A DNA stretch of 64,000 nucleotides, from the NCBI RefSeq assembly GCF_002775205.1, contig NC_036461.1:20973645-21037644 (forward strand), in the 5' to 3' direction. This stretch comes from Xiphophorus maculatus (Eukaryota; Chordata; Actinopteri; Cyprinodontiformes; Poeciliidae). Below are positions 33,630 to 64,000 of this stretch, one piece after another. The translations under genes and the position numbers were made by a program. The notes beneath the pieces are model-generated. The model made no database searches and had not been told where the DNA came from. It saw only the letters and a list, made by a program, of their open reading frames with translations. Every line of letters starts with the position of its first letter. Position 1 is the first letter of the stretch.

Positions 33630-33659
33630 GGCTCTGCTGGTCAGTGAAATTAACGAAAT

Positions 33660-37539: not shown

Positions 37540-37607
37540 GGCTCAGCTGGTCCTGAAAAGCAGAAAGGCAAAAATGTTAAAAGTGGTAAACTAGATGAAT
37601 TGTAATT

Positions 37608-40651: not shown

Positions 40652-41164
40652 GTCTGGTTCCTTTTCACATGTAATGTACAGTTGACCCCTTGCACTCTTT
40701 ACAGAAACCTCTTATTTTTATGAAGGACGACACCTGGGGTACACCTTGGCTCTTTTAAATGTAAAAGTGCAAGAACTTTTAATTTTATTCCAGATTCCCT
40801 GGTTCACAACATGAGTCCATGTGCCTCTCTTCAAAATGGTGTATGCCCTTTTTTCTAAACATGTCCTTTTTGTATGTGACTTTCTCTGGAATCATATGCA
40901 TCCACTCTTCAAATGGGAGCTCCACATTAAAAGTCTTATTGCCTTTGTTTTGTAAAGGAGACATTTGGACCTTTGGTCAAAAGGAGTGTCAGGAGAACAT
41001 GCATGCACATCTGGTCGACGTAGAACCCCTCAGGGTCGACTCCTCATGGGGCCAACTGAGGAGGAAAACCGGACTGTGGCAGGGAGGGCCTGGCAAGGAG
41101 GAGGTTCTGGCTGCCCTTTCAAATAAAGGCCACAAGATCCATTAAAACTTAAAAAAATAAAAAA
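40652..41164. other. Left flank of the tandem array, no gene seen
   Basis: It probably holds the remainder of the transposon-derived sequence. No MARK-like exon or other conserved coding sequence is recognised. Confidence 0.4.
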
Positions 41165-41518
41165 CAAGGCATTTATCAAATCGTGCATATCTTTCAAATC
41201 AAGCAAAAAAAAAAACCCAAAAAACAACTGAATAACTTTTACTTCATTGTTTGTTTATTAATTTTGCCATAGAAAGACCAGCAAAGCTCCTATTTGCTTG
41301 TTTGTCCATGGACAAACTCCTTAACAGTCAGCCGGCAAAAAACTGAGAAAGAGGCTCTGTGGGAGGAGAGCAAAGCGCTTACTGGCGAGTCAAAGCACCT
41401 GAATTTTATTACAATGTACAATCATAAAAATTTTTTGATTATTCCATTCATCCATATCTATCTAAGGGGAACACACTCACACCTAGGGAGAATTTAGAGA
41501 CCAATTAACTCTTACCTT
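41165..41518 (+). repeat. Diverged extra copy of a unit segment at the array's left edge
   Basis: About 350 bases match 42213-42568 inside unit I at clearly lower identity than unit-to-unit identity. Shared blocks include 'cttgtttgtccatggacaaa' (variant), 'ggctctgtgggaggagagca' and 'aagcgcttactggcgagtca'. It ends in a truncated SINE tail (41441-41518) that joins directly to sequence matching the end of the MARK exon. Confidence 0.85.
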
Positions 41519-41701
41519 ACAACTTAAAACTATAAACAAAAGGACTTAAAAGATAAGTTAAAAACAATCTAAATCAAATCTATACTCAGAGGTATTTAAG
41601 CTGTACAATCATCCAAGTAGCAGTTTCCAAATGTCTCCTTTTTGTCCCCTGGGGCAACCGGGTTCTGGCGGGCACCGTGTTGGTGACCCCTGTTTTGGAT
41701 C

Positions 41702-41707
41702 AATAAA
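41702..41707 (+). terminator. AATAAA in the tail after the MARK exon
   Basis: AATAAA lies about 170 bases after the position equivalent to the KA1 stop codon; the next unit has it at 46726-46731, and it recurs in each later unit. It sits in a 'ggatcaataaagtatttttg' plus GAATT-rich tail that also looks like a LINE/SINE 3' end, so it may be repeat-derived while still serving as a polyadenylation signal. Confidence 0.5.
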
Positions 41708-41964
41708 GTATTTTTGAATTGAATTTTGAATTTGAATTTTTCTTCCAAACCATGCTTTACGACAGAGAGAAGTTTTCCCCATTTGAAGGTCCGAAACTGA
41801 AAGCAGAAATATAATGTCACACCAGCAGTGAAAGTTTCAAAAATGTCATTGTGAACTTAGACTGGTTGGCCAATAGGTGGCAGCATAAGGAGTGATAAAC
41901 ATGACAACGTGATACTTGTGTGGCAGTATGCCCTGTGGGCTCTGAACGCGTCACACAAGTGCCT

Positions 41965-42030
41965 GAATTTAATTGGTTGTGGCGCTGTCTGTATATAAAG
42001 GGCCCTCCCTCACCTGGTAGACATCATGTT
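41965..42030 (+). promoter_or_regulatory. TATA/CCAAT core-promoter-like block (unit I)
   Basis: An inverted CCAAT box (ATTGGTT, 41972-41978) stands 14 bases before TATATAAAGG (41992-42001), a textbook vertebrate spacing. A spliced-type donor (TGTG|GTAAGA) occurs at about 42142. The TATA box recurs at 47016, 52061, 57123 and 62124. It could be a gene promoter or an LTR-like remnant; no flanking LTR structure is visible. Confidence 0.55.
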
Positions 42031-42489
42031 TTCCTTCCGGTTCACACCTCGCTGTTTGCTGGCGCTGCACACCAGCCGCGTACTAATGCGCTCTTGAATG
42101 ATGCGCTTAACGACGCACTAATCGCTGATCGATCCTTCTTGTGGTAAGAAGCTTCTCACACCCTTAATGTCTGTTAGCCTAGACTTAGCTAAAAAAAAGT
42201 TGGTTTCACAGTGGAAAAAAAACGATTCATCAAATTGTGCATATTTTTCAAATCAAGCAAAAAGAACTGAATAACTTTTGATTCGTTGTTATTAATTTTG
42301 CCGTAGAAAACCCCCAACAAAGCTCCTGTTTGCTGTTTGTCCATGGACAAACTCCTCAACAGTCACCTGGCAAAAAACTGGGAAGGAGGCTCTGTGGGAG
42401 GAGAGCAAAGCGCTTACTGGCGAGTCAAAGCATCTGAATTTATTAGGTCTCTATATGGCGATTAACATAAATCATTAAAAAAAAAATTA

Positions 42490-42735
42490 TTTTCCATTCA
42501 TCCATTTCTATCTAAGGGGAACACACTCACACCTAGGGAGAATTTGGAGTGACCAATGAACTCTTACCTTGTTGTCATGTTTTTGGAATGTGGGAGGAAA
42601 CCGGAGTACCCGGAGGAAACCCACGCATGCACAGGGAGAACATGCAAACTCCTACAGTAGTTATGGGAAGCGAACCCACAACCTTTCGACTGTAAGGCAA
42701 CAACCTTACGGACTGAGCCACTGTGCAGCCCGCTA
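42490..42735 (-). repeat. tRNA-derived SINE-like repeat in the unit
   Basis: On minus the head reads 'gggctgcacagtggctcagt' with a B box 'gggttcgcttccc', followed by 'gtttgcatgttctccctgtg' and 'ggtttcctccgggtactccgg', one of the most widespread repeat bodies in teleosts. Copies lie at about 47518-47761, 52563-52806, 57625-57868 and 62626-62869. Confidence 0.8.
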
Positions 42736-42769
42736 TAGAATGGCGCTACTATTAATATAACTCTTAGCA

Positions 42770-42960
42770 TTTTGACGTCACCGGGTGATCATCATCCGGG
42801 CCTTTTCACGTCACTTCCGTTGAAAACAACACCACGTGCGTTGCCCATGAACGCCGTAGCTGTCACTTCCAGCGGGATTAAAAGCAGCATTTATTTGACG
42901 TATAAATGCAGACTGGTTGAAGCTAGTTTGAACCAAAAAAGTCAAGCTTCGGAGAAGGTA
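42770..42960 (+). promoter_or_regulatory. CRE/ETS/E-box promoter-like block (unit I)
   Basis: It contains a consensus CRE, TGACGTCA (42773-42780), an ETS-type CACTTCCG (about 42812-42819), a second CACTTCC, and an E-box CACGTG (42833-42838), followed by a good splice donor (GAGAAG|GTAGGG, exon end 42957). The density of such sites and CpGs suggests a promoter with a non-coding first exon. The CRE recurs at 47799, 52844, 57906 and 62907. A 102-codon open frame spans the block in every unit but resembles no protein I know. Confidence 0.45.
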
Positions 42961-43231
42961 GGGGTTGAGTTTGTAGCGGCTATTTTGCTTGCCAAACGGA
43001 ACCGCCGGTCAAGGAAGCCGGTGTCGCTTGAATTAGCTCATGTCCTCAAATCTCCAAACACGTTCAACGTTCACCTTTGAAGGGTTTTGTGAAAATAGCT
43101 CATGCTAGCAAACGCTTTGCACCTCGTTATGCTCCTGAAGTAATTTGTGAAATGCAATGAAATAACATTACATTGTAAGAAACTGAGACTTGGAAGCTAA
43201 CGTTAACTTGAGGCAGCAAACGCTGACTGCT

Positions 43232-43262
43232 CACGTCACTGAGCTCACTGCTCAGTGACGTG
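43232..43262. promoter_or_regulatory. Perfect CRE-bearing inverted repeat (unit I)
   Basis: CACGTCACTGAGC, loop tcact, then GCTCAGTGACGTG: 13-bp perfect arms, each carrying a TGACG half-CRE. Copies lie at 48258-48288, 53303-53333, 58365-58395 and 63366-63396, all unchanged. Confidence 0.8.
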
Positions 43263-43508
43263 TTGGTGGTGGCTCACACCGTCGCTAACGTATTCCGTCA
43301 CACACTTGATTTCTCTTTTCTTTTCTCTTCCATTCACTGAAATTGATGAGAAATGATTTGTGTTGTGCACAATCCACAATCTGTTTTGTTGTTTTCTTCT
43401 CCTCTGACTCCCCGTGTGAATTTTCTCACGGCGCCTCAGAGTCTCAACCGAGTTTGAGAGAAACGGGAGACTTGAGGGCTCAAGGTGAGCTTATACCTGC
43501 TGCCCCCC

Positions 43509-43509
<1 letters not shown>

Positions 43510-43547
<38 letters not shown>
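43510..43547. repeat. (AC)19 microsatellite, unit I
   Basis: Thirty-eight bases of uninterrupted AC, immediately after a C-run and a donor-like 'caag|gtgagc' (43484/43485). Confidence 0.95.
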
Positions 43548-43548
<1 letters not shown>

Positions 43549-44386
43549 GCTTCCCATGTAGCGTCAGGCCCGCGCTGCTTTGCCCTGAGTGTGTAGGAGT
43601 TGCAGCAGTGTGTTGTTGCAGCTTTGTTGCTGCGGTTGCATGGCTGTGTGACGTGCCGCTCTGCTAACGCTGCATGCTAGCTGAAGATTCAAAGTCTGCT
43701 TTAATTCTGCTGAAATGTCTCCGGTTTCTGTTGAGATTCTCCAAAAATATTCCTTTACATGATCTATGAAAAACCCAGAAAGCGGTGGAGGCTTTTAGTA
43801 AAAACTATTTTAAAATGTCAAATTTTGGTAATTTAAAAGAAAAATGGATATGAAAAGTAGAAATGTTTTTTTTTTGTTTGTTTGTTTGTTTGTTTCTTCT
43901 CTGGTTTGTAAAGCCAGAGAAGAAGAAACGACCAGAATTTCTTTGTGTTATTTACTAAATAAATAGATTTAAATGTTAAGTCAATAATTACTGGGGTTTC
44001 AAATCAAAACGACACAAAAGACAAACAAAATAGATTTATTTCAAATAAAACTAATATACATTAAAATACTGAAGTTACAAAAAGATTTTATGCTGTTATG
44101 TAAAATACATGTTTTGAAGGAATCCCCTTGATCTTATAAATTAGTAAGAAGACGTGGAGCTTCTGCTACATGAGGAAACATGGAAAGAGCTAATCAGAAA
44201 TAAAAATAGATTTAAAAAAGTTTGACTGCTTTAAAGTCAGTCAATATTTTTTTATTGATTATTGAGGAATGTTATAAGTAGTTTAGTTACTTTGAAATTC
44301 TTACATTATCTTTTGAGATGCTGTTGTCATTTCCTATCAGAAATAAGTTTTTAATCTCCAATTGTCAGGTATGAAGATGTTTATGT

Positions 44387-45633
44387 TAGTGATGGGTAAA
44401 TGAGGCGTCATGTGTCGTTTTGACCCAAAGCAAAACTGTATTGATACCGCGTCAATACTGTGTCACTGAATACTGACACCTGCTGGACATTTAAAATCCC
44501 TACAGGCAACGCAGTTCACAGACTGATTTGATGACCTAGTCTATACAATAAGATTTAAGTCATTTAATTTCATCGTATATTGTATATTGTATAATGTCAT
44601 ATCTTCAGTTAAAATCAAAATATATTTGATATTCTTCGATACAGTCAATAAGTAATGTGAACATGAACCAAGTGATGAAAATGAAAGCGATCGTGTTTGG
44701 AATGAGGATGCTTGTGGACTGGGGGTTTTTTGTTGGTGTTTTTTCCCACAAATTTTCATTTAAAAAAAAAAGGTTTTTCTAAAATTTTGAAATTTAATCT
44801 GTTCCGTTTTTTTGACACAACTTCTCCTGCTGTAGAAAAAATGAAGTAAACAATACATTTATATGAAATAATTGATAAAAAGCAGCTGAGTAATTTGTAG
44901 ACTGGCTGTATACCTGAGTTTATCCAGGTGTATCTGTGACTTCATTCTGATGCCCTATGCCTCAGCATTGAGGAGGTGAATTTATTTAAATAAAACAGAT
45001 TTTAGTGACACTGTATATTGTTCACATAACTTACATTTTGTCTTTTATATTTTGTACGCAGATCTTTATGGATGTGTTTTGCTGGAAATGTCTTTTGTGT
45101 ATTTATTTATAGCGGGATTGTCTTTATTTCCCTTTTTTCTGCCTAAAGATTTTTATTTATGGAGGGTAATTTAAGAATAAAATTATGAAATGTATAATTT
45201 CAAAGGAGAAACATGCAAAACTTAACCTGCAGAACATAATATGAAAGTAAACTAAGAGTCGGTTTCAGCTGAATTTGGATTCAGATAGATCGAGTAGAAA
45301 CTGAAAAGAACCGGATGAAACAACTACGAAGTGAGAACCAATACCTTATTTTCTGACGTAAGATTAAAATGGCCCCATACTACCAAACCTTTCGTTTGCC
45401 TTGAGGCTCCATAGTTGACGCTGTACCGTAAAAGGTCAAGAATTATTTTGGCAAATGCATCCCGTTGACAGATTGGCTTCCATATATAAACAGTTTGGCG
45501 CACCAGTGTCATTTGGAAACAGTTCCTGTATCGGTCACGTGACTTGCTGAAAACGATACGCGCACCGACGCTGATTTTGGTCTATGAGCTTGACACATGC
45601 GCCGACGCATCGGTGTTACCGGACCCATCACTA
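44387..45633. mobile_element. Non-autonomous hAT-type element, unit I
   Basis: Terminal inverted repeats TAGTGATGGGT (44387-44397) and ACCCATCACTA (45623-45633) are perfect for 11 bases and continue imperfectly (gcgtc/gacgc words). A perfect 8-bp target duplication, GTTTATGT, flanks it at 44379-44386 and 45634-45641; 8 bp is diagnostic of hAT. The 1247-bp interior is AT-rich with no transposase frame. Confidence 0.92.
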
Positions 45634-46211
45634 GTTTATGTTTCAAACATCTTATCGACAGTTAAAGAACTTTTTAAAAATGTATTTATGTACAGTGAAT
45701 CAAATCTTAATGTTGCAGTGATATTCTGGGTTTTTCAGAGATGGCTTCAGTCTGTTTTTACTTTCTTTTACTTCCCCTTTCTCAGTTTGGAAGTCACAGA
45801 CAAAATGTAGTAAAAGTAATGAGAGAGTAAATATGCTAATAGATTATTTACAACTGTTTTTTATTATTATTAAAACAAGATTTAACTTTACCGTTAAACT
45901 GGAATAAAATAAAAGTTGGTTTCACAAGCAAAAAATCAAAAAAGCTGTAATGACTGTTGACTACATTTTGTCTAGTTAAAGGCTCCACAGCTTTGTGCTG
46001 CCACCTAAATGTGACATAAAGATAAACTGAGCTCAGAGCGGCTCAGGTCACAGTAAGAAAAACTTCAGCTTTATTAGACTTTATAGTTTCATTCACTGCC
46101 GCCCCTAAAAGAAACAAAAAGTCACTTCTGTGAAAGATTTGTTGCAAACAATCCCAGCAGGATTTTAATTTATTCTAAGCCAAGCTCTTCTCCGTGTCTT
46201 TCTCCCCACAG

Positions 46212-46557
46212 TCGCCATGTACCTGGGGATCAGAAAGGGGAAATTAAAGACGGTAAGCCCCGCTCCCTCAGATTCACTTGGAATATGAGAACCACCAGCT
46301 CCATGGAGCCCTGCGACATCATGAGGGAGATCCGCAAGGTGCTCGACGCCAACAACTGCGACTACGAACAGCAAGAGAGTTTCCTGCTCCTCTGCGTCCA
46401 TGGCGACGGGCGGGCCGAGAACCTGGTCCAGTGGGAGATGGAGGTCTGCAGGCTCCCCCGTCTCTCCCTGAACGGCGTCCGCTTCAAAAGGATATCCGGG
46501 TCGTCCATCGCTTTCAAGAACATTGCTTCCAAAATAGCCAACGACTTAAATCTATGA
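46212..46557 (+). CDS. MARK/Par-1 kinase terminal exon with KA1 domain, copy 1
   Basis: The sequence is a typical last exon of a microtubule-affinity-regulating kinase (MARK2/3 type): strong acceptor (gtgtctttctccccacag), one base completing a split codon, then 114 residues to TGA at 46555. Residues include [69 protein letters not shown] and [22 protein letters not shown]1 folds back on the kinase domain and binds acidic phospholipids at the plasma membrane. The domain is complete and undamaged. The exon needs an upstream exon ending two bases into a codon; none is identified. A start in good context exists internally (ctccATGG at 46303). Confidence 0.93.
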
Positions 46558-48534
46558 ACAAAAGGACTTAAAAGATAAGTAAAAAAAAAAATCTAAATCA
46601 AATCTATATTCAGAGGTATTGAAGCTGTACAATCATCCAATTAGCAGTTTCCAAATGTCTCCTTTTTGTCCCCTGGGGCAACCGGGTTCTGGCGGGCACC
46701 GTGTTGGTGACCCCTGTTTTGGATCAATAAAGTATTTTTGAATTGAATTTTGAATTTGAATTTTTCTTCCAAACCATGCTTTACGACAGAGAGAAGTTTT
46801 CCCCATTTGAAGGTCGGAAACTGAAAGCAGAAATATAATGTCACACCAGCAGTGAAAGTTTCAAAAATGTCATTGTGAACTTAGACTGGTTGGCCAGTAG
46901 GTGGCAGCATAAGGAGTGATAAACATGACAACGTGATACTTGTGTGGCAGTATGCCCTGTGGGCTCTGAACGCGTCACACAAGTGCCTGAATTTAATTGG
47001 TTGTGGCGCTGTCTGTATATAAAGGGCCCTCCCTCACCTGGTAGACATCATGTTTTCCTTCCGGTTCACACCTCGCTGTTTGCTGGCGCTGCACACCAGC
47101 CGCGTACTAATGCGCTCTTGAATGATGCGCTTAACGACGCACTAATCGCTGATCGATCCTTCTTGTGGTAAGAAGCTTCTCACACCCTTAATGACTGTTA
47201 GCCTAGACTTAGCTAAAAAAAAGTTGGTTTCACAGTGGGAAAAAAAACGATTCATCAAATTGTGCATATTTTTCAAATCAAGCAAAAAGAACTGAATAAC
47301 TTTTGATTCGTTGTTATTAATTTTGCCGTAGAAAACCCCCCAACAAAGCTCCTGTTTGCTGTTTGTCCATGGACAAACTCCTCAACAGTCACCTGTCAAA
47401 AAACTGGGAAGGAGGCTCTGTGGGAGGAGAGCAAAGCGCTTACTGGCGAGTCAAAGCATCTGAATTTATTAGGTCTCTATATGGCGATTAACATAAATCA
47501 TTAAAAAAAATTTTATTTTCCATTCATCCATTTCTATCTAAGGGGAACACACTCACACCTAGGGAGAATTTGGAGTGACCAATGAACTCTTACCTTGTTG
47601 TCATGTTTTTGGAATGTGGGAGGAAACCGGAGTACCCGGAGGAAACCCACGCATGCACAGGGAGAACATGCAAACTCCTACAGTAGTTATGGGAAGCGAA
47701 CCCACAACCTTTCGACTGTAAGGCAACAACCTTACGGACTGAGCCACTGTGCAGCCCGCTATAGAATGGCGCTACTATTAATATAACTCTTAGCATTTTG
47801 ACGTCACCGGGTGATCATCATCCGGGCCTTTTTACGTCACTTCCGTTGAAAACAACACCACGTGCGTTGCCCATGAACGCCGTAGCTGTCACTTCCAGCG
47901 GGATTAAAAGCAGCATTTATTTGACGTATAAATGCAGACTGGTTGAAGCTAGTTTGAACCAAAAAAGTCAAGCTTCGGAGAAGGTAGGGGTTGAGTTTGT
48001 AGCGGCTATTTTGCTTGCCAAACGGAACCGCCGGTCAAGGAAGCCGGTGTCGCTTGAATTAGCTCATGTCCTCAAATCTCCAAACACGTTCAACGTTCAC
48101 CTTTGAAGGGTTTTGTGAAAATAGCTCATGCTAGCAAACGCTTTGCACCTCGTTATGCTCCTGAAGTAATTTGTGAAATGCAATGAAATAACATTACATT
48201 GTAAGAAACTGAGACTTGGAAGCTAACGTTAACTTGAGGCAGCAAACGCTGACTGCTCACGTCACTGAGCTCACTGCTCAGTGACGTGTTGGTGGTGGCT
48301 CACACCGTCGCTAACGTATTCCGTCACACACTTGATTTCTCTTTTCTTTTCTCTTCCATTCACTGAAATTGATGAGAAATGATTTGTGTTGTGCACAATC
48401 CACAATCTGTTTTGTTGTTTTCTTCTCCTCTGACTCCCCGTGTGAATTTTCTCACGGCGCCTCAGAGTCTCAACCGAGTTTGAGAGAAACGGGAGACTTG
48501 AGGGCTCAAGGTGAGCTTATACCTGCTGCCCCCC

Positions 48535-48535
<1 letters not shown>

Positions 48536-48603
<68 letters not shown>
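48536..48603. repeat. (AC)34 microsatellite, unit II
   Basis: Sixty-eight bases of pure AC at the same site as 43510-43547. Confidence 0.95.
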
Positions 48604-48604
<1 letters not shown>

Positions 48605-49442
48605 GCTTCCCATGTAGCGTCAGGCCCGCGCTGCTTTGCCCTGAGTGTGTAGGAGTTGCAGCAGTGTGTTGTTGCAGCTTTGTTGCTGCGGTTGCATGGC
48701 TGTGTGACGTGCCGCTCTGCTAACGCTGCATGCTAGCTGAAGATTCAAAGTCTGCTTTAATTCTGCTGAAATGTCTCCGGTTTCTGTTGAGATTCTCCAA
48801 AAATATTCCTTTACATGATCTATGAAAAACCCAGAAAGCGGTGGAGGCTTTTAGTAAAAACTATTTTAAAATGTCAAATTTTGGTAATTTAAAAGAAAAA
48901 TGGATATGAAAAGTAGAAATGTTTTTTTTTTGTTTGTTTGTTTGTTTGTTTCTTCTCTGGTTTGTAAAGCCAGAGAAGAAGAAACGACCAGAATTTCTTT
49001 GTGTTATTTACTAAATAAATAGATTTAAATGTTAAGTCAATAATTACTGGGGTTTCAAATCAAAACGACACAAAAGACAAACAAAATAGATTTATTTCAA
49101 ATAAAACTAATATACATTAAAATACTGAAGTTACAAAAAGATTTTATGCTGTTATGTAAAATACATGTTTTGAAGGAATCCCCTTGATCTTATAAATTAG
49201 TAAGAAGACGTGGAGCTTCTGCTACATGAGGAAACATGGAAAGAGCTAATCAGAAATAAAAATAGATTTAAAAAAGTTTGACTGCTTTAAAGTCAGTCAA
49301 TATTTTTTTATTGATTATTGAGGAATGTTATAAGTAGTTTAGTTACTTTGAAATTCTTACATTATCTTTTGAGATGCTGTTGTCATTTCCTATCAGAAAT
49401 AAGTTTTTAATCTCCAATTGTCAGGTATGAAGATGTTTATGT

Positions 49443-50690
49443 TAGTGATGGGTAAATGAGGCGTCATGTGTCGTTTTGACCCAAAGCAAAACTGTATTGA
49501 TACCGCGTCAATACTGTGTCACTGAATACTGACACCTGCTGGACATTTAAAATCCCTACAGGCAACGCAGTTCACAGACTGATTTGATGACCTAGTCTAT
49601 ACAATAAGATTTAAGTCATTTAATTTCATCGTATATTGTATATTGTATAATGTCATATCTTCAGTTAAAATCAAAATATATTTGATATTCTTCGATACAG
49701 TCAATAAGTAATGTGAACATGAACCAAGTGATGAAAATGAAAGCGATCGTGTTTGGAATGAGGATGCTTGTGGACTGGGGGTTTTTTGTTGGTGTTTTTT
49801 CCCACAAATTTTCATTTAAAAAAAAAAAGGTTTTTCTAAAATTTTGAAATTTAATCTGTTCCGTTTTTTTGACACAACTTCTCCTGCTGTAGAAAAAATG
49901 AAGTAAACAATACATTTATATGAAATAATTGATAAAAAGCAGCTGAGTAATTTGTAGACTGGCTGTATACCTGAGTTTATCCAGGTGTATCTGTGACTTC
50001 ATTCTGATGCCCTATGCCTCAGCATTGAGGAGGTGAATTTATTTAAATAAAACAGATTTTAGTGACACTGTATATTGTTCACATAACTTACATTTTGTCT
50101 TTTATATTTTGTACGCAGATCTTTATGGATGTGTTTTGCTGGAAATGTCTTTTGTGTATTTATTTATAGCGGGATTGTCTTTATTTCCCTTTTTTCTGCC
50201 TAAAGATTTTTATTTATGGAGGGTAATTTAAGAATAAAATTATGAAATGTATAATTTCAAAGGAGAAACATGCAAAACTTAACCTGCAGAACATAATATG
50301 AAAGTAAACTAAGAGTCGGTTTCAGCTGAATTTGGATTCAGATAGATCGAGTAGAAACTGAAAAGAACCGGATGAAACAACTACGAAGTGAGAACCAATA
50401 CCTTATTTTCTGACGTAAGATTAAAATGGCCCCATACTACCAAACCTTTCGTTTGCCTTGAGGCTCCATAGTTGACGCTGTACCGTAAAAGGTCAAGAAT
50501 TATTTTGGCAAATGCATCCCGTTGACAGATTGGCTTCCATATATAAACAGTTTGGCGCACCAGTGTCATTTGGAAACAGTTCCTGTATCGGTCACGTGAC
50601 TTGCTGAAAACGATACGCGCACCGACGCTGATTTTGGTCTATGAGCTTGACACATGCGCCGACGCATCGGTGTTACCGGACCCATCACTA
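49443..50690. mobile_element. Non-autonomous hAT-type element, unit II
   Basis: Same insertion as 44387-45633, with the same GTTTATGT target duplication (49435-49442 and 50691-50698). One base longer in an A-run. Confidence 0.92.
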
Positions 50691-51257
50691 GTTTATGTTT
50701 CAAACATCTTATCGACAGTTAAAGAACTTTTTAAAAATGTATTTATGTACAGTGAATGTTGCAGTGATATTCTGGGTTTTTCAGAGATGGCTTCAGTCTG
50801 TTTTTACTTTCTTTTACTTCCCCTTTCTCAGTTTGGAAGTCACAGACAAAATGTAGTAAAAGTAATGAGAGAGTAAATATGCTAATAGATTATTTACAAC
50901 TGTTTTTTATTATTATTAAAACAAGATTTAACTTTACCGTTAAACTGGAATAAAATAAAAGTTGGTTTCACAAGCAAAAAATAAAAAAAGCTGTAATGAC
51001 TGTTGACTACATTTTGTCTAGTTAAAGGCTCCACAGCTTTGTGCTGCCACCTAAATGTGACATAAAGATAAACTGAGCTCAGAGCGGCTCAGGTCACAGT
51101 AAGAAAAACTTCAGCTTTATTAGACTTTATAGTTTCATTCACTGCCGCCCCTAAAAGAAACAAAAAGTCACTTCTGTGAAAGATTTGTTGCAAACAATCC
51201 CAGCAGGATTTTAATTTATTCTAAGCCAAGCTCTTCTCCGTGTCTTTCTCCCCACAG

Positions 51258-51603
51258 TCGCCATGTACCTGGGGATCAGAAAGGGGAAATTAAAGACGGT
51301 AAGCCCCGCTCCCTCAGATTCACTTGGAATATGAGAACCACCAGCTCCATGGAGCCCTGCGACATCATGAGGGAGATCCGCAAGGTGCTCGACGCCAACA
51401 ACTGCGACTACGAACAGCAAGAGAGTTTCCTGCTCCTCTGCGTCCATGGCGACGGGCGGGCCGAGAACCTGGTCCAGTGGGAGATGGAGGTCTGCAGGCT
51501 CCCCCGTCTCTCCCTGAACGGCGTCCGCTTCAAAAGGATATCCGGGTCGTCCATCGCTTTCAAGAACATTGCTTCCAAAATAGCCAACGACTTAAATCTA
51601 TGA
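51258..51603 (+). CDS. MARK/Par-1 terminal exon with KA1 domain, copy 2
   Basis: Same 346-bp exon with the same acceptor and stop; the encoded 114 residues are identical to copy 1. It lies 5046 bp after copy 1. Confidence 0.93.
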
Positions 51604-53579
51604 ACAAAAGGACTTAAAAGATAAGTAAAAAAAAAATCTAAATCAAATCTATATTCAGAGGTATTGAAGCTGTACAATCATCCAATTAGCAGTTTCCAAA
51701 TGTCTCCTTTTTGTCCCCTGGGGCAACCGGGTTCTGGCGGGCACCGTGTTGGTGACCCCTGTTTTGGATCAATAAAGTATTTTTGAATTGAATTTTGAAT
51801 TTGAATTTTTCTTCCAAACCATGCTTTACGACAGAGAGAAGTTTTCCCCATTTGAAGGTCCGAAACTGAAAGCAGAAATATAATGTCACACCAGCAGTGA
51901 AAGTTTCAAAAATGTCATTGTGAACTTAGACTGGTTGGCCAGTAGGTGGCAGCATAAGGAGTGATAAACATGACAACGTGATACTTGTGTGGCAGTATGC
52001 CCTGTGGGCTCTGAACGCGTCACACAAGTGCCTGAATTTAATTGGTTGTGGCGCTGTCTGTATATAAAGGGCCCTCCCTCACCTGGTAGACATCATGTTT
52101 TCCTTCCGGTTCACACCTCGCTGTTTGCTGGCGCTGCACACCAGCCGCGTACTAATGCGCTCTTGAATGATGCGCTTAACGACGCACTAATCGCTGATCG
52201 ATCCTTCTTGTGGTAAGAAGCTTCTCACACCCTTAATGACTGTTAGCCTAGACTTAGCTAAAAAAAAGTTGGTTTCACAGTGGGAAAAAAAACGATTCAT
52301 CAAATTGTGCATATTTTTCAAATCAAGCAAAAAGAACTGAATAACTTTTGATTCGTTGTTATTAATTTTGCCGTAGAAAACCCCCCAACAAAGCTCCTGT
52401 TTGCTGTTTGTCCATGGACAAACTCCTCAACAGTCACCTGTCAAAAAACTGGGAAGGAGGCTCTGTGGGAGGAGAGCAAAGCGCTTACTGGCGAGTCAAA
52501 GCATCTGAATTTATTAGGTCTCTATATGGCGATTAACATAAATCATTAAAAAAAATTTTATTTTCCATTCATCCATTTCTATCTAAGGGGAACACACTCA
52601 CACCTAGGGAGAATTTGGAGTGACCAATGAACTCTTACCTTGTTGTCATGTTTTTGGAATGTGGGAGGAAACCGGAGTACCCGGAGGAAACCCACGCATG
52701 CACAGGGAGAACATGCAAACTCCTACAGTAGTTATGGGAAGCGAACCCACAACCTTTCGACTGTAAGGCAACAACCTTACGGACTGAGCCACTGTGCAGC
52801 CCGCTATAGAATGGCGCTACTATTAATATAACTCTTAGCATTTTGACGTCACCGGGTGATCATCATCCGGGCCTTTTTACGTCACTTCCGTTGAAAACAA
52901 CACCACGTGCGTTGCCCATGAACGCCGTAGCTGTCACTTCCAGCGGGATTAAAAGCAGCATTTATTTGACGTATAAATGCAGACTGGTTGAAGCTAGTTT
53001 GAACCAAAAAAGTCAAGCTTCGGAGAAGGTAGGGGTTGAGTTTGTAGCGGCTATTTTGCTTGCCAAACGGAACCGCCGGTCAAGGAAGCCGGTGTCGCTT
53101 GAATTAGCTCATGTCCTCAAATCTCCAAACACGTTCAACGTTCACCTTTGAAGGGTTTTGTGAAAATAGCTCATGCTAGCAAACGCTTTGCACCTCGTTA
53201 TGCTCCTGAAGTAATTTGTGAAATGCAATGAAATAACATTACATTGTAAGAAACTGAGACTTGGAAGCTAACGTTAACTTGAGGCAGCAAACGCTGACTG
53301 CTCACGTCACTGAGCTCACTGCTCAGTGACGTGTTGGTGGTGGCTCACACCGTCGCTAACGTATTCCGTCACACACTTGATTTCTCTTTTCTTTTCTCTT
53401 CCATTCACTGAAATTGATGAGAAATGATTTGTGTTGTGCACAATCCACAATCTGTTTTGTTGTTTTCTTCTCCTCTGACTCCCCGTGTGAATTTTCTCAC
53501 GGCGCCTCAGAGTCTCAACCGAGTTTGAGAGAAACGGGAGACTTGAGGGCTCAAGGTGAGCTTATACCTGCTGCCCCCC

Positions 53580-53580
<1 letters not shown>

Positions 53581-53654
<74 letters not shown>
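53581..53654. repeat. (AC)37 microsatellite, unit III
   Basis: Seventy-four bases of pure AC, the longest of the five. Confidence 0.95.
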
Positions 53655-53655
<1 letters not shown>

Positions 53656-54493
53656 GCTTCCCATGTAGCGTCAGGCCCGCGCTGCTTTGCCCTGAGTGTG
53701 TAGGAGTTGCAGCAGTGTGTTGTTGCAGCTTTGTTGCTGCGGTTGCATGGCTGTGTGACGTGCCGCTCTGCTAACGCTGCATGCTAGCTGAAGATTCAAA
53801 GTCTGCTTTAATTCTGCTGAAATGTCTCCGGTTTCTGTTGAGATTCTCCAAAAATATTCCTTTACATGATCTATGAAAAACCCAGAAAGCGGTGGAGGCT
53901 TTTAGTAAAAACTATTTTAAAATGTCAAATTTTGGTAATTTAAAAGAAAAATGGATATGAAAAGTAGAAATGTTTTTTTTTTGTTTGTTTGTTTGTTTGT
54001 TTCTTCTCTGGTTTGTAAAGCCAGAGAAGAAGAAACGACCAGAATTTCTTTGTGTTATTTACTAAATAAATAGATTTAAATGTTAAGTCAATAATTACTG
54101 GGGTTTCAAATCAAAACGACACAAAAGACAAACAAAATAGATTTATTTCAAATAAAACTAATATACATTAAAATACTGAAGTTACAAAAAGATTTTATGC
54201 TGTTATGTAAAATACATGTTTTGAAGGAATCCCCTTGATCTTATAAATTAGTAAGAAGACGTGGAGCTTCTGCTACATGAGGAAACATGGAAAGAGCTAA
54301 TCAGAAATAAAAATAGATTTAAAAAAGTTTGACTGCTTTAAAGTCAGTCAATATTTTTTTATTGATTATTGAGGAATGTTATAAGTAGTTTAGTTACTTT
54401 GAAATTCTTACATTATCTTTTGAGATGCTGTTGTCATTTCCTATCAGAAATAAGTTTTTAATCTCCAATTGTCAGGTATGAAGATGTTTATGT

Positions 54494-55741
54494 TAGTGAT
54501 GGGTAAATGAGGCGTCATGTGTCGTTTTGACCCAAAGCAAAACTGTATTGATACCGCGTCAATACTGTGTCACTGAATACTGACACCTGCTGGACATTTA
54601 AAATCCCTACAGGCAACGCAGTTCACAGACTGATTTGATGACCTAGTCTATACAATAAGATTTAAGTCATTTAATTTCATCGTATATTGTATATTGTATA
54701 ATGTCATATCTTCAGTTAAAATCAAAATATATTTGATATTCTTCGATACAGTCAATAAGTAATGTGAACATGAACCAAGTGATGAAAATGAAAGCGATCG
54801 TGTTTGGAATGAGGATGCTTGTGGACTGGGGGTTTTTTGTTGGTGTTTTTTCCCACAAATTTTCATTTAAAAAAAAAAAGGTTTTTCTAAAATTTTGAAA
54901 TTTAATCTGTTCCGTTTTTTTGACACAACTTCTCCTGCTGTAGAAAAAATGAAGTAAACAATACATTTATATGAAATAATTGATAAAAAGCAGCTGAGTA
55001 ATTTGTAGACTGGCTGTATACCTGAGTTTATCCAGGTGTATCTGTGACTTCATTCTGATGCCCTATGCCTCAGCATTGAGGAGGTGAATTTATTTAAATA
55101 AAACAGATTTTAGTGACACTGTATATTGTTCACATAACTTACATTTTGTCTTTTATATTTTGTACGCAGATCTTTATGGATGTGTTTTGCTGGAAATGTC
55201 TTTTGTGTATTTATTTATAGCGGGATTGTCTTTATTTCCCTTTTTTCTGCCTAAAGATTTTTATTTATGGAGGGTAATTTAAGAATAAAATTATGAAATG
55301 TATAATTTCAAAGGAGAAACATGCAAAACTTAACCTGCAGAACATAATATGAAAGTAAACTAAGAGTCGGTTTCAGCTGAATTTGGATTCAGATAGATCG
55401 AGTAGAAACTGAAAAGAACCGGATGAAACAACTACGAAGTGAGAACCAATACCTTATTTTCTGACGTAAGATTAAAATGGCCCCATACTACCAAACCTTT
55501 CGTTTGCCTTGAGGCTCCATAGTTGACGCTGTACCGTAAAAGGTCAAGAATTATTTTGGCAAATGCATCCCGTTGACAGATTGGCTTCCATATATAAACA
55601 GTTTGGCGCACCAGTGTCATTTGGAAACAGTTCCTGTATCGGTCACGTGACTTGCTGAAAACGATACGCGCACCGACGCTGATTTTGGTCTATGAGCTTG
55701 ACACATGCGCCGACGCATCGGTGTTACCGGACCCATCACTA
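54494..55741. mobile_element. Non-autonomous hAT-type element, unit III
   Basis: Same insertion site, terminal repeats and target duplication (left copy 54486-54493). Confidence 0.92.
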
Positions 55742-56319
55742 GTTTATGTTTCAAACATCTTATCGACAGTTAAAGAACTTTTTAAAAATGTATTTATGTA
55801 CAGTGAATCAAATCTTAATGTTGCAGTGATATTCTGGGTTTTTCAGAGATGGCTTCAGTCTGTTTTTACTTTCTTTTACTTCCCCTTTCTCAGTTTGGAA
55901 GTCACAGACAAAATGTAGTAAAAGTAATGAGAGAGTAAATATGCTAATAGATTATTTACAACTGTTTTTTATTATTATTAAAACAAGATTTAACTTTACC
56001 GTTAAACTGGAATAAAATAAAAGTTGGTTTCACAAGCAAAAAATCAAAAAAGCTGTAATGACTGTTGACTACATTTTGTCTAGTTAAAGGCTCCACAGCT
56101 TTGTGCTGCCACCTAAATGTGACATAAAGATAAACTGAGCTCAGAGCGGCTCAGGTCACAGTAAGAAAAACTTCAGCTTTATTAGACTTTATAGTTTCAT
56201 TCACTGCCGCCCCTAAAAGAAACAAAAAGTCACTTCTGTGAAAGATTTGTTGCAAACAATCCCAGCAGGATTTTAATTTATTCTAAGCCAAGCTCTTCTC
56301 CGTGTCTTTCTCCCCACAG

Positions 56320-56665
56320 TCGCCATGTACCTGGGGATCAGAAAGGGGAAATTAAAGACGGTAAGCCCCGCTCCCTCAGATTCACTTGGAATATGAGAAC
56401 CACCAGCTCCATGGAGCCCTGCGACATCATGAGGGAGATCCGCAAGGTGCTCGACGCCAACAACTGCGACTACGAACAGCAAGAGAGTTTCCTGCTCCTC
56501 TGCGTCCATGGCGACGGGCGGGCCGAGAACCTGGTCCAGTGGGAGATGGAGGTCTGCAGGCTCCCCCGTCTCTCCCTGAACGGCGTCCGCTTCAAAAGGA
56601 TATCCGGGTCGTCCATCGCTTTCAAGAACATTGCTTCCAAAATAGCCAACGACTTAAATCTATGA
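56320..56665 (+). CDS. MARK/Par-1 terminal exon with KA1 domain, copy 3
   Basis: Same exon, 5062 bp after copy 2, with an identical protein and intact acceptor and stop. Confidence 0.93.
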
Positions 56666-58638
56666 ACAAAAGGACTTAAAAGATAAGTAAAAAAAAAATC
56701 TAAATCAAATCTATATTCAGAGGTATTGAAGCTGTACAATCATCCAATTAGCAGTTTCCAAATGTCTCCTTTTTGTCCCCTGGGGCAACCGGGTTCTGGC
56801 GGGCACCGTGTTGGTGACCCCTGTTTTGGATCAATAAAGTATTTTTGAATTGAATTTTGAATTTGAATTTTTCTTCCAAACCATGCTTTACGACAGAGAG
56901 AAGTTTTCCCCATTTGAAGGTCGGAAACTGAAAGCAGAAATATAATGTCACACCAGCAGTGAAAGTTTCAAAAATGTCATTGTGAACTTAGACTGGTTGG
57001 CCAGTAGGTGGCAGCATAAGGAGTGATAAACATGACAACGTGATACTTGTGTGGCAGTATGCCCTGTGGGCTCTGAACGCGTCACACAAGTGCCTGAATT
57101 TAATTGGTTGTGGCGCTGTCTGTATATAAAGGGCCCTCCCTCACCTGGTAGACATCATGTTTTCCTTCCGGTTCACACCTCGCTGTTTGCTGGCGCTGCA
57201 CACCAGCCGCGTACTAATGCGCTCTTGAATGATGCGCTTAACGACGCACTAATCGCTGATCGATCCTTCTTGTGGTAAGAAGCTTCTCACACCCTTAATG
57301 ACTGTTAGCCTAGACTTAGCTAAAAAAAAGTTGGTTTCACAGTGGGAAAAAAAACGATTCATCAAATTGTGCATATTTTTCAAATCAAGCAAAAAGAACT
57401 GAATAACTTTTGATTCGTTGTTATTAATTTTGCCGTAGAAAACCCCCCAACAAAGCTCCTGTTTGCTGTTTGTCCATGGACAAACTCCTCAACAGTCACC
57501 TGTCAAAAAACTGGGAAGGAGGCTCTGTGGGAGGAGAGCAAAGCGCTTACTGGCGAGTCAAAGCATCTGAATTTATTAGGTCTCTATATGGCGATTAACA
57601 TAAATCATTAAAAAAAATTTTATTTTCCATTCATCCATTTCTATCTAAGGGGAACACACTCACACCTAGGGAGAATTTGGAGTGACCAATGAACTCTTAC
57701 CTTGTTGTCATGTTTTTGGAATGTGGGAGGAAACCGGAGTACCCGGAGGAAACCCACGCATGCACAGGGAGAACATGCAAACTCCTACAGTAGTTATGGG
57801 AAGCGAACCCACAACCTTTCGACTGTAAGGCAACAACCTTACGGACTGAGCCACTGTGCAGCCCGCTATAGAATGGCGCTACTATTAATATAACTCTTAG
57901 CATTTTGACGTCACCGGGTGATCATCATCCGGGCCTTTTTACGTCACTTCCGTTGAAAACAACACCACGTGCGTTGCCCATGAACGCCGTAGCTGTCACT
58001 TCCAGCGGGATTAAAAGCAGCATTTATTTGACGTATAAATGCAGACTGGTTGAAGCTAGTTTGAACCAAAAAAGTCAAGCTTCGGAGAAGGTAGGGGTTG
58101 AGTTTGTAGCGGCTATTTTGCTTGCCAAACGGAACCGCCGGTCAAGGAAGCCGGTGTCGCTTGAATTAGCTCATGTCCTCAAATCTCCAAACACGTTCAA
58201 CGTTCACCTTTGAAGGGTTTTGTGAAAATAGCTCATGCTAGCAAACGCTTTGCACCTCGTTATGCTCCTGAAGTAATTTGTGAAATGCAATGAAATAACA
58301 TTACATTGTAAGAAACTGAGACTTGGAAGCTAACGTTAACTTGAGGCAGCAAACGCTGACTGCTCACGTCACTGAGCTCACTGCTCAGTGACGTGTTGGT
58401 GGTGGCTCACACCGTCGCTAACGTATTCCGTCACACACTTGATTTCTCTTTTCTTTTCTCTTCCATTCACTGAAATTGATGAGAAATGATTTGTGTTGTG
58501 CACAATCCACAATCTGTTTTGTTGTTTTCTTCTGACTCCCCGTGTGAATTTTCTCACGGCGCCTCAGAGTCTCAACCGAGTTTGAGAGAAACGGGAGACT
58601 TGAGGGCTCAAGGTGAGCTTATACCTGCTGCCCCCCCA

Positions 58639-58656
58639 ACACACACACACACACAC
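58639..58656. repeat. (AC)9 microsatellite, unit IV
   Basis: Eighteen bases of AC after a run of seven C, the shortest of the five. Confidence 0.95.
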
Positions 58657-59494
58657 CGCTTCCCATGTAGCGTCAGGCCCGCGCTGCTTTGCCCTGAGTG
58701 TGTAGGAGTTGCAGCAGTGTGTTGTTGCAGCTTTGTTGCTGCGGTTGCATGGCTGTGTGACGTGCCGCTCTGCTAACGCTGCATGCTAGCTGAAGATTCA
58801 AAGTCTGCTTTAATTCTGCTGAAATGTCTCCGGTTTCTGTTGAGATTCTCCAAAAATATTCCTTTACATGATCTATGAAAAACCCAGAAAGCGGTGGAGG
58901 CTTTTAGTAAAAACTATTTTAAAATGTCAAATTTTGGTAATTTAAAAGAAAAATGGATATGAAAAGTAGAAATGTTTTTTTTTGTTTGTTTGTTTGTTTG
59001 TTTCTTCTCTGGTTTGTAAAGCCAGAGAAGAAGAAACGACCAGAATTTCTTTGTGTTATTTACTAAATAAATAGATTTAAATGTTAAGTCAATAATTACT
59101 GGGGTTTCAAATCAAAACGACACAAAAGACAAACAAAATAGATTTATTTCAAATAAAACTAATATACATTAAAATACTGAAGTTACAAAAAGATTTTATG
59201 CTGTTATGTAAAATACATGTTTTGAAGGAATCCCCTTGATCTTATAAATTAGTAAGAAGACGTGGAGCTTCTGCTACATGAGGAAACATGGAAAGAGCTA
59301 ATCAGAAATAAAAATAGATTTAAAAAAGTTTGACTGCTTTAAAGTCAGTCAATATTTTTTTATTGATTATTGAGGAATGTTATAAGTAGTTTAGTTACTT
59401 TGAAATTCTTACATTATCTTTTGAGATGCTGTTGTCATTTCCTATCAGAAATAAGTTTTTAATCTCCAATTGTCAGGTATGAAGATGTTTATGT

Positions 59495-60742
59495 TAGTGA
59501 TGGGTAAATGAGGCGTCATGTGTCGTTTTGACCCAAAGCAAAACTGTATTGATACCGCGTCAATACTGTGTCACTGAATACTGACACCTGCTGGACATTT
59601 AAAATCCCTACAGGCAACGCAGTTCACAGACTGATTTGATGACCTAGTCTATACAATAAGATTTAAGTCATTTAATTTCATCGTATATTGTATATTGTAT
59701 AATGTCATATCTTCAGTTAAAATCAAAATATATTTGATATTCTTCGATACAGTCAATAAGTAATGTGAACATGAACCAAGTGATGAAAATGAAAGCGATC
59801 GTGTTTGGAATGAGGATGCTTGTGGACTGGGGGTTTTTTGTTGGTGTTTTTTCCCACAAATTTTCATTTAAAAAAAAAAAGGTTTTTCTAAAATTTTGAA
59901 ATTTAATCTGTTCCGTTTTTTTGACACAACTTCTCCTGCTGTAGAAAAAATGAAGTAAACAATACATTTATATGAAATAATTGATAAAAAGCAGCTGAGT
60001 AATTTGTAGACTGGCTGTATACCTGAGTTTATCCAGGTGTATCTGTGACTTCATTCTGATGCCCTATGCCTCAGCATTGAGGAGGTGAATTTATTTAAAT
60101 AAAACAGATTTTAGTGACACTGTATATTGTTCACATAACTTACATTTTGTCTTTTATATTTTGTACGCAGATCTTTATGGATGTGTTTTGCTGGAAATGT
60201 CTTTTGTGTATTTATTTATAGCGGGATTGTCTTTATTTCCCTTTTTTCTGCCTAAAGATTTTTATTTATGGAGGGTAATTTAAGAATAAAATTATGAAAT
60301 GTATAATTTCAAAGGAGAAACATGCAAAACTTAACCTGCAGAACATAATATGAAAGTAAACTAAGAGTCGGTTTCAGCTGAATTTGGATTCAGATAGATC
60401 GAGTAGAAACTGAAAAGAACCGGATGAAACAACTACGAAGTGAGAACCAATACCTTATTTTCTGACGTAAGATTAAAATGGCCCCATACTACCAAACCTT
60501 TCGTTTGCCTTGAGGCTCCATAGTTGACGCTGTACCGTAAAAGGTCAAGAATTATTTTGGCAAATGCATCCCGTTGACAGATTGGCTTCCATATATAAAC
60601 AGTTTGGCGCACCAGTGTCATTTGGAAACAGTTCCTGTATCGGTCACGTGACTTGCTGAAAACGATACGCGCACCGACGCTGATTTTGGTCTATGAGCTT
60701 GACACATGCGCCGACGCATCGGTGTTACCGGACCCATCACTA
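59495..60742. mobile_element. Non-autonomous hAT-type element, unit IV
   Basis: Same insertion with GTTTATGT at 59487-59494 on the left. Confidence 0.92.
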
Positions 60743-61320
60743 GTTTATGTTTCAAACATCTTATCGACAGTTAAAGAACTTTTTAAAAATGTATTTATGT
60801 ACAGTGAATCAAATCTTAATGTTGCAGTGATATTCTGGGTTTTTCAGAGATGGCTTCAGTCTGTTTTTACTTTCTTTTACTTCCCCTTTCTCAGTTTGGA
60901 AGTCACAGACAAAATGTAGTAAAAGTAATGAGAGAGTAAATATGCTAATAGATTATTTACAACTGTTTTTTATTATTATTAAAACAAGATTTAACTTTAC
61001 CGTTAAACTGGAATAAAATAAAAGTTGGTTTCACAAGCAAAAAATCAAAAAAGCTGTAATGACTGTTGACTACATTTTGTCTAGTTAAAGGCTCCACAGC
61101 TTTGTGCTGCCACCTAAATGTGACATAAAGATAAACTGAGCTCAGAGCGGCTCAGGTCACAGTAAGAAAAACTTCAGCTTTATTAGACTTTATAGTTTCA
61201 TTCACTGCCGCCCCTAAAAGAAACAAAAAGTCACTTCTGTGAAAGATTTGTTGCAAACAATCCCAGCAGGATTTTAATTTATTCTAAGCCAAGCTCTTCT
61301 CCGTGTCTTTCTCCCCACAG

Positions 61321-61666
61321 TCGCCATGTACCTGGGGATCAGAAAGGGGAAATTAAAGACGGTAAGCCCCGCTCCCTCAGATTCACTTGGAATATGAGAA
61401 CCACCAGCTCCATGGAGCCCTGCGACATCATGAGGGAGATCCGCAAGGTGCTCGACGCCAACAACTGCGACTACGAACAGCAAGAGAGTTTCCTGCTCCT
61501 CTGCGTCCATGGCGACGGGCGGGCCGAGAACCTGGTCCAGTGGGAGATGGAGGTCTGCAGGCTCCCCCGTCTCTCCCTGAACGGCGTCCGCTTCAAAAGG
61601 ATATCCGGGTCGTCCATCGCTTTCAAGAACATTGCTTCCAAAATAGCCAACGACTTAAATCTATGA
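61321..61666 (+). CDS. MARK/Par-1 terminal exon with KA1 domain, copy 4
   Basis: Same exon, 5001 bp after copy 3, with an identical protein. Unit V runs on after it, so at least one further copy may exist beyond the window. Confidence 0.93.
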
Positions 61667-63638
61667 ACAAAAGGACTTAAAAGATAAGTAAAAAAAAAAT
61701 CTAAATCAAATCTATATTCAGAGGTATTGAAGCTGTACAATCATCCAATTAGCAGTTTCCAAATGTCTCCTTTTTGTCCCCTGGGGCAACCGGGTTCTGG
61801 CGGGCACCGTGTTGGTGACCCCTGTTTTGGATCAATAAAGTATTTTTGAATTGAATTTTGAATTTGAATTTTTCTTCCAAACCATGCTTTACGACAGAGA
61901 GAAGTTTTCCCCATTTGAAGGTCGGAAACTGAAAGCAGAAATATAATGTCACACCAGCAGTGAAAGTTTCAAAAATGTCATTGTGAACTTAGACTGGTTG
62001 GCCAGTAGGTGGCAGCATAAGGAGTGATAAACATGACAACGTGATACTTGTGTGGCAGTATGCCCTGTGGGCTCTGAACGCGTCACACAAGTGCCTGAAT
62101 TTAATTGGTTGTGGCGCTGTCTGTATATAAAGGGCCCTCCCTCACCTGGTAGACATCATGTTTTCCTTCCGGTTCACACCTCGCTGTTTGCTGGCGCTGC
62201 ACACCAGCCGCGTACTAATGCGCTCTTGAATGATGCGCTTAACGACGCACTAATCGCTGATCGATCCTTCTTGTGGTAAGAAGCTTCTCACACCCTTAAT
62301 GACTGTTAGCCTAGACTTAGCTAAAAAAAAGTTGGTTTCACAGTGGGAAAAAAAACGATTCATCAAATTGTGCATATTTTTCAAATCAAGCAAAAAGAAC
62401 TGAATAACTTTTGATTCGTTGTTATTAATTTTGCCGTAGAAAACCCCCCAACAAAGCTCCTGTTTGCTGTTTGTCCATGGACAAACTCCTCAACAGTCAC
62501 CTGTCAAAAAACTGGGAAGGAGGCTCTGTGGGAGGAGAGCAAAGCGCTTACTGGCGAGTCAAAGCATCTGAATTTATTAGGTCTCTATATGGCGATTAAC
62601 ATAAATCATTAAAAAAAATTTTATTTTCCATTCATCCATTTCTATCTAAGGGGAACACACTCACACCTAGGGAGAATTTGGAGTGACCAATGAACTCTTA
62701 CCTTGTTGTCATGTTTTTGGAATGTGGGAGGAAACCGGAGTACCCGGAGGAAACCCACGCATGCACAGGGAGAACATGCAAACTCCTACAGTAGTTATGG
62801 GAAGCGAACCCACAACCTTTCGACTGTAAGGCAACAACCTTACGGACTGAGCCACTGTGCAGCCCGCTATAGAATGGCGCTACTATTAATATAACTCTTA
62901 GCATTTTGACGTCACCGGGTGATCATCATCCGGGCCTTTTTACGTCACTTCCGTTGAAAACAACACCACGTGCGTTGCCCATGAACGCCGTAGCTGTCAC
63001 TTCCAGCGGGATTAAAAGCAGCATTTATTTGACGTATAAATGCAGACTGGTTGAAGCTAGTTTGAACCAAAAAAGTCAAGCTTCGGAGAAGGTAGGGGTT
63101 GAGTTTGTAGCGGCTATTTTGCTTGCCAAACGGAACCGCCGGTCAAGGAAGCCGGTGTCGCTTGAATTAGCTCATGTCCTCAAATCTCCAAACACGTTCA
63201 ACGTTCACCTTTGAAGGGTTTTGTGAAAATAGCTCATGCTAGCAAACGCTTTGCACCTCGTTATGCTCCTGAAGTAATTTGTGAAATGCAATGAAATAAC
63301 ATTACATTGTAAGAAACTGAGACTTGGAAGCTAACGTTAACTTGAGGCAGCAAACGCTGACTGCTCACGTCACTGAGCTCACTGCTCAGTGACGTGTTGG
63401 TGGTGGCTCACACCGTCGCTAACGTATTCCGTCACACACTTGATTTCTCTTTTCTTTTCTCTTCCATTCACTGAAATTGATGAGAAATGATTTGTGTTGT
63501 GCACAATCCACAATCTGTTTTGTTGTTTTCTTCTCTGACTCCCCGTGTGAATTTTCTCACGGCGCCTCAGAGTCTCAACCGAGTTTGAGAGAAACGGGAG
63601 ACTTGAGGGCTCAAGGTGAGCTTATACCTGCTGCCCCA

Positions 63639-63671
<33 letters not shown>

Positions 63672-64000
63672 CGCTTCCCATGTAGCGTCAGGCCCGCGCT
63701 GCTTTGCCCTGAGTGTGTAGGAGTTGCAGCAGTGTGTTGTTGCAGCTTTGTTGCTGCGGTTGCATGGCTGTGTGACGTGCCGCTCTGCTAACGCTGCATG
63801 CTAGCTGAAGATTCAAAGTCTGCTTTAATTCTGCTGAAATGTCTCCGGTTTCTGTTGAGATTCTCCAAAAATATTCCTTTACATGATCTATGAAAAACCC
63901 AGAAAGCGGTGGAGGCTTTTAGTAAAAACTATTTTAAAATGTCAAATTTTGGTAATTTAAAAGAAAAATGGATATGAAAAGTAGAAATGTTTTTTTTTTT
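61667..64000 (+). repeat. Tandem array unit V (cut by the window end)
   Basis: The first 2.3 kb of a further unit, ending in the T-run before the hAT element. The CA tract has 14 units (63644-63671) with an interrupted start ('ccccacaccc'). The array therefore continues beyond 64000. Confidence 0.97.
63644..63671. repeat. (AC)14 microsatellite, unit V
   Basis: Twenty-eight bases of AC preceded by an interrupted 'ccccacaccc' start that is unique to this unit. Confidence 0.95.

Follow-up and report, generated by a model that had tools for sequence, protein, structure and literature searches.

How did a run of MARK-type KA1 exons come to stand on C19 of Xiphophorus maculatus without a kinase beside it, and are these exons likely to make protein? 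The window analysed here, a stretch of 64,000 nucleotides (C19:20973645-21037644), ends in an array of such exons. This array is very probably a recent partial-gene segmental duplication, in which the KA1 exons would be passengers of a duplicon carrying an amplified open reading frame (ORF) family and would make no KA1 protein. From 41519 to the window end five head-to-tail units are spaced at 5001–5062 bp, and a complete terminal exon is present in the first four.

41519..46540, plus strand: unit u0, 5022 bp, contains exon 1
46541..51586, plus strand: unit u1, 5046 bp, contains exon 2
51587..56648, plus strand: unit u2, 5062 bp, contains exon 3
56649..61649, plus strand: unit u3, 5001 bp, contains exon 4
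61650..64000, plus strand: partial unit u4, 2351 bp, runs into N past the window
46212..46557, plus strand: orphan terminal exon 1, encodes 114 complete residues of a MARK-type KA1 domain, ends in TGA and follows the acceptor AG at 46210-46211
51258..51603, plus strand: orphan terminal exon 2, identical to exon 1
56320..56665, plus strand: orphan terminal exon 3, identical to exon 1
61321..61666, plus strand: orphan terminal exon 4, identical to exon 1

The preliminary description had reported four identical, intact KA1 terminal exons with acceptors, set in near-identical units of about 5 kb with a fifth running off the edge, and both statements hold. The acceptor AGs (46211, 51257, 56319 and 61320) stand in the context CTCCCCACAG with TCGCC following the junction, and the exons end in TGA at 46557, 51603, 56665 and 61666. 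The Pfam KA1 profile (PF02149) scores the exon at 71.9 bits against a cut-off of 23, and the four PDB sequences matched are all MARK1 or MARK3 (best E 1.2e-57). The first ATG within the exon is out of frame and opens a 23-codon reading, while the first one in frame would give 90 residues, without the initial 24 of the exon. It had also been said that no MARK kinase exon lies upstream in the window. This was confirmed, since the sole tblastn match of a MARK kinase-UBA query in the window has an E of 1.4, against 1.8e-48 at the control locus (L012). Neither kinase nor UBA exons were found in eight fetched loci (six from orphan clusters and two beside the N stretch past the window), and no kinase match lies near the orphans in a search of the genome (704.3 Mb, 101 contigs; 124 of 669 candidates scored). 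The kinase and UBA exons of a MARK/PAR-1 gene, upstream on the same strand, are thus missing from the orphans in these searches. No description of orphan KA1 exon arrays was found in the open-licence literature with the terms used.

The origin of the exons can be traced through their relatives in the genome. The Pfam KA1 search gave 21 matches: six in MARK-type genes with kinase matches nearby (C11, C14, C15, C18, C19 and C22), one on C5 at about 7 kb from a kinase match (possibly melk) and 14 orphans. A search with the exon DNA gave 18 matches, namely 14 full-length ones at 98–100% identity, a further orphan that is truncated, and three exons of MARK paralogues at 76–82%. The full-length sites are the apparent parent and 13 intact orphans (12 on C19, one on C10), which fall into five clusters. 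Nine of the intact orphans lie beyond the window's four.

C19:20.58 Mb, plus strand: orphan
C19:20.80 Mb, minus strand: orphan
C19:20.82 Mb, minus strand: orphan
C19:23.126-23.188 Mb, minus strand: five orphans, 15.2–15.9 kb apart
C10:22.476 Mb, plus strand: orphan
C10:22.4687 Mb: truncated orphan

The likely parent is the terminal exon of a mark gene that shares the strand of the array and lies 1.7 Mb further downstream. In this gene (C19:22.717-22.760 Mb, plus strand) five pieces of the MARK3 kinase-UBA query match in order at 73–98% identity, query residues 35–130 being without a match among those listed, and the KA1 exon follows. The orphan exon has the same start and phase and a matching acceptor, encodes the same domain and shares 97% protein identity with it. 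A 481-bp intron probe from the window found the same 14 sites and three fragments, at 98% identity in the parent and 97–100% in the full-length orphans. Given so few sites at such identity, the copied part is low-copy and recent. The intron is kept at all 13 full-length orphan sites and the acceptor is present in each of the six distinct orphan loci. A processed retrocopy, with introns removed and a poly(A) tail, is therefore ruled out by the retained intron. As a separate observation, the parental KA1 domain (L042) differs from those of MARK3 and MARK1 at 14–15 of 96 residues, yet three of the kinase pieces are 91–98% identical to MARK3, so that the KA1 part seems to evolve faster than the kinase part.

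Within the unit the homology to the parent covers part of the last intron, the exon and about 100 bp after the stop, and is interrupted by an insertion. These elements, and those that adjoin them, are placed as follows.

47214..49443, plus strand: part of the last intron of the parent mark gene, first block, 91% identity
50691..51603, plus strand: remaining copied intron and exon, second parent-homologous block, 96% identity, unit u1
46541..46667, plus strand: exon end and about 100 bp of 3' untranslated region (UTR) like the parent; 3' limit of parent homology
44388..45634, plus strand: 1.25-kb insertion in the copied intron, TTTATGTT on both sides, inverted ends AGTGATGGGT/ACCCATCACT
41900..42180, plus strand: dispersed repeat in which a TATA-like box and a donor-like GTAAG were read by eye; also on other chromosomes (40 of 64 candidates scored)
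46717..46943, plus strand: fragment like the DNA upstream of the ORF family, 80% and 86% identical to the C10 and C14 members
41519..41535, plus strand: truncated KA1 exon-end remnant of 17 nt (last codons and stop), array left edge
41220..41518, plus strand: left flank, a copy of a repeat also present within each unit (84%), fused to the exon remnant

Segmental duplications are low-copy sequences of 1 kb or longer that share 90% identity or higher, and the copied block falls within this definition. The 1.25-kb insertion, which we take to be hAT-like, provides a marker of descent. The parent has a single TTTATGTT (an 8-bp repeat) at the corresponding position, that is, an empty site with no insertion. 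The window's four copies and L003, L039, L040, L041 and L043 all carry at least some of the insertion, which makes nine of the 13 orphans, the other four belonging to the 23.1-Mb array in stretches fetched too short to show it. Its presence in all nine orphans examined and its absence from the parent suggest that the orphans descend from one copy.

Microsatellite lengths and a single clear substitution are what distinguishes units u1 to u3 and the partial u4 among themselves. About 14 substitutions are private to u0, all inside its first 1.3 kb. This divergence would fit the edge of an array that recombines unequally. The 17-nt remnant at this edge retains the Lys114 codon of the parent. At the right edge N begins at the first base past the window (C19:21037645-21070874). 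This stretch, fetched at its two ends and not in its middle, comes to 33,230 bases if continuous, or about 6–7 unit lengths if it is one gap within the array. An open frame of 11,518 residues at C19:21.07 Mb was discarded, as N had been read as open and only the part after the N is real sequence. A 113-residue open frame, the only other frame of the unit scanned for domains, belongs to no Pfam family.

A closer view of the orphan surroundings revealed an amplified ORF family. The member in the single 15.7-kb unit fetched is placed as follows.

L044:4224-6611, minus strand: ORF-family member with one in-frame stop

Its frame runs for 553 residues to the in-frame stop and then for 242 further open residues, and an acceptor-like stretch stands directly before the ACCATGG start. 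The family is marked by MALPADGSP...PAKRTRD repeats, and some members have longer open frames than this copy. The frame has no Pfam or PDB match. A tblastn search that scored 80 of 99 candidates reported at least 170 matches; among those listed, the ones on C7, C14 and C19 (there at 23.10-23.20 Mb, among other places) stand at regular intervals, and others are on C10, C16, C17 and further contigs. A member lies near each of the five orphan clusters: at 4–5 kb downstream on the same strand for the orphans at C19:20.82, C19:23.1 and C10:22.48, about 11 kb upstream of the C19:20.80 orphan, about 9 kb upstream of the C19:20.58 orphan (a distant one, 55–69%) and, for the window cluster, directly past the N stretch, at a distance of 35.6 kb from the last window exon. 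The dN/dS values (nonsynonymous over synonymous divergence) between the C19, C10 and C14 members are 0.64–0.71, with a dS of 0.26–0.27, over three pairs of 165–266 codons with the repeats included. With such values the family looks weakly constrained. It is probably this family that is being amplified. The TATA-like segment was considered as its promoter but is not supported in that role, because the 10 kb of sequence retrieved for each of the members on C10 and C14 showed no match to it and it is itself dispersed. An open frame of 616 residues (L048:4416-6263, plus strand), reverse transcriptase/RNase H-like by eye, was also seen upstream of the C14 member.

A block of the mark gene, made of part of the last intron, the last exon and about 100 bp of 3' UTR, thus lies next to ORF-family upstream DNA and the dispersed repeat. 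One founding copy of it would have given rise to all orphans. The ORF-family duplicon would later have spread through segmental duplication and unequal crossing-over, carrying the KA1 exon along as a passenger. No KA1 protein would be made from the orphan exons, and their open frames would persist because the copies are young.

The variation among the exons is in keeping with this. Ten sites vary among the 14 intact copies, nine of them nonsynonymous and one synonymous. One of the nine, Ile to Val at position 109, probably arose on the parent's own branch, because the paralogues have Ile. Residues that mark orphans are Arg81 and Asn114 in the window type, and elsewhere Gln93 or Asn93. The orphan changes alone stand at 8:1, a ratio with P = 0.26–0.37 under neutrality, P = 0.00003–0.00014 at an omega of 0.1, 0.0015–0.0047 at 0.2 and 0.009–0.023 at 0.3, all of these values ignoring parallel changes and recombination among copies. 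The sequences thus give no sign of strong purifying selection on the orphan exons. The Lys of the motif VRFKRISG is lost in seven of the 13 orphans (Gln in two, Asn in five), and the Lys-Arg pair is retained in the other six, the window's four among them. By our own reading of the motif this pair corresponds to K1170/R1171 of C. elegans PAR-1, which are reportedly needed for membrane and lipid binding and for autoinhibition (PMC6451319). All exon changes fall in about the part that matches the distal 45 residues of the MARK2 KA1 domain, reportedly needed for CLASP1 binding (PMC6890249). Random substitutions would create a stop codon in about 3% of cases, so that its absence among ten changes carries little weight. 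Together, the 9:1 changes, the loss of the lysine in seven of 13 orphans and the youth of the copies make the intact frames weak evidence of function. The two changes each at codons 93 and 109 were considered as a mark of selection and set aside, about one such coincidence being expected with 10 changes in 42 codons.

Several observations weigh against this account. The frame is open in all 13 full-length orphans, and under moderate constraint (an omega of 0.5) the 8:1 ratio has P = 0.055–0.10. Codons 1–73, which correspond to 217 exon bases, are identical in 14 of 14 copies, all 10 variable sites of the exon lying in its last part, and the adjoining 540 bp of intron have 26 variable sites (seven distinct loci, one sequence each). 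The longest invariant run measures 240 nt, with P about 0.0005 if the 40 sites are placed uniformly, in a test that takes the longest run anywhere, for a run picked after the data were seen. Neutral decay is insufficient to explain codons 1–73 unless gene conversion or selection acts as well. The reading preferred here is that the orphans may have undergone conversion with the parent exon, which is under constraint; selection may instead have acted on these first codons. An original presence of the insertion in the parent, followed by its loss, is conceivable in principle. Finally, the passenger link is weaker for the window cluster, whose member lies past the N stretch, and for the C19:20.58 orphan, whose member is distant.

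Among the other explanations, the free expression of KA1 is improbable. In this scenario a promoter borne by the repeat of each unit would drive short RNAs spliced into the KA1 exon of the next unit, with the kinase-free domain competing against MARK for membranes or inhibiting MARK in trans. The TATA-like box and the donor-like site of each unit (by eye), about 4 kb upstream of the next acceptor, would serve such a design, as would the undamaged acceptor and frame, the Lys-Arg pair kept in the window copies and the invariant codons 1–73. However, translation from the first ATG of the exon would be in the wrong frame, a start at the earliest in-frame ATG would leave 90 residues, without the initial 24 of the exon, the TATA segment is a dispersed repeat, the key lysine is lost in seven of 13 orphans and no strong purifying selection is seen. 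In a more selective version, judged very unlikely, the orphan exons would be expressed with codons 1–73 held constant and the last 42, among them those of the Lys-Arg pair, free to change or under positive selection; the resulting family of KA1 proteins that lack a kinase, part of them unable to bind membranes, would modulate MARK, possibly in germ cells.

Equally doubtful is the capture of the exon by a transposon that spread it by transposition. Copies at several sites on two chromosomes and an insertion with inverted ends inside the unit could suggest it, but this insertion is internal to the copied intron and not at the borders of the copies, the homology stops on its 3' side at different places in different loci, and no common termini are seen in the fetched stretches, which are limited. 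That an assembler repeated a single unit is still harder to accept: the units are near-identical and the array meets N, but several microsatellite lengths differ between units, u0 has its own substitutions, and four further clusters hold separate copies with different flanks. One proposal of the preliminary description was that a mark gene far upstream uses these as alternative 3' exons, which would be reached by cis-splicing. This is scarcely credible in this assembly, although start phase and acceptor agree with the parental terminal exon. The array lies upstream of the C19 MARK-type gene, and the copies on the far side of that gene have the opposite orientation. None of the 13 orphans is thus downstream of the parent on its strand, which rules all of them out as its alternative 3' exons. 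Further kinase matches listed for C19 are only 28–38% identical, the nearest upstream on the plus strand being more than 10 Mb off.

The remainder of the window contains unrelated features. Neither an Rfam search (at gathering scores) nor one for tRNAs returned a match in the window, and the following frames and exons were seen.

1916-3013, plus strand: C2H2 zinc-finger open frame, tandem period 84 bp, 10.4 copies
21502-21888, minus strand: CAP-Gly exon (Pfam CAP_GLY), which we take to resemble dynactin 1
32958-33737 and 36877-37542, minus strand: two GNAT acetyltransferase open frames, DNA 86.5% identical, presumably nat8-like
40007-40711, minus strand, just left of the array: 234-residue open frame, no Pfam match, presumably transposase-like (by eye)

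The array can be compared with known systems. Partial-gene segmental duplications and core duplicons are likewise recent, near-identical mosaic copies of parts of genes, mostly on one chromosome, some in tandem, and placed beside an amplified family. NOTCH2NL reportedly retains the 5' end of its parent together with the promoter, whereas here the terminal exon alone was copied. Macrosatellites and multicopy tandem genes also consist of near-identical kilobase-scale units in head-to-tail order, more diverged at the array edge; in contrast, the units here are few, and the related copies in other clusters are single or stand in 15.7-kb units. With respect to MARK/PAR-1 genes, the orphans share the KA1 terminal exon but neither the upstream exons nor, in seven of 13, the Lys of the Lys-Arg pair.

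An intact, spliceable domain exon can thus mimic a new regulatory gene family while being a young passenger of segmental duplication, and among copies that differ by about 0–3% intact frames and good acceptors say little. The invariant codons 1–73 offer a concrete test case for gene conversion against selection. If any copy were expressed, it would constitute a natural experiment that uncouples the KA1 domain from its kinase.

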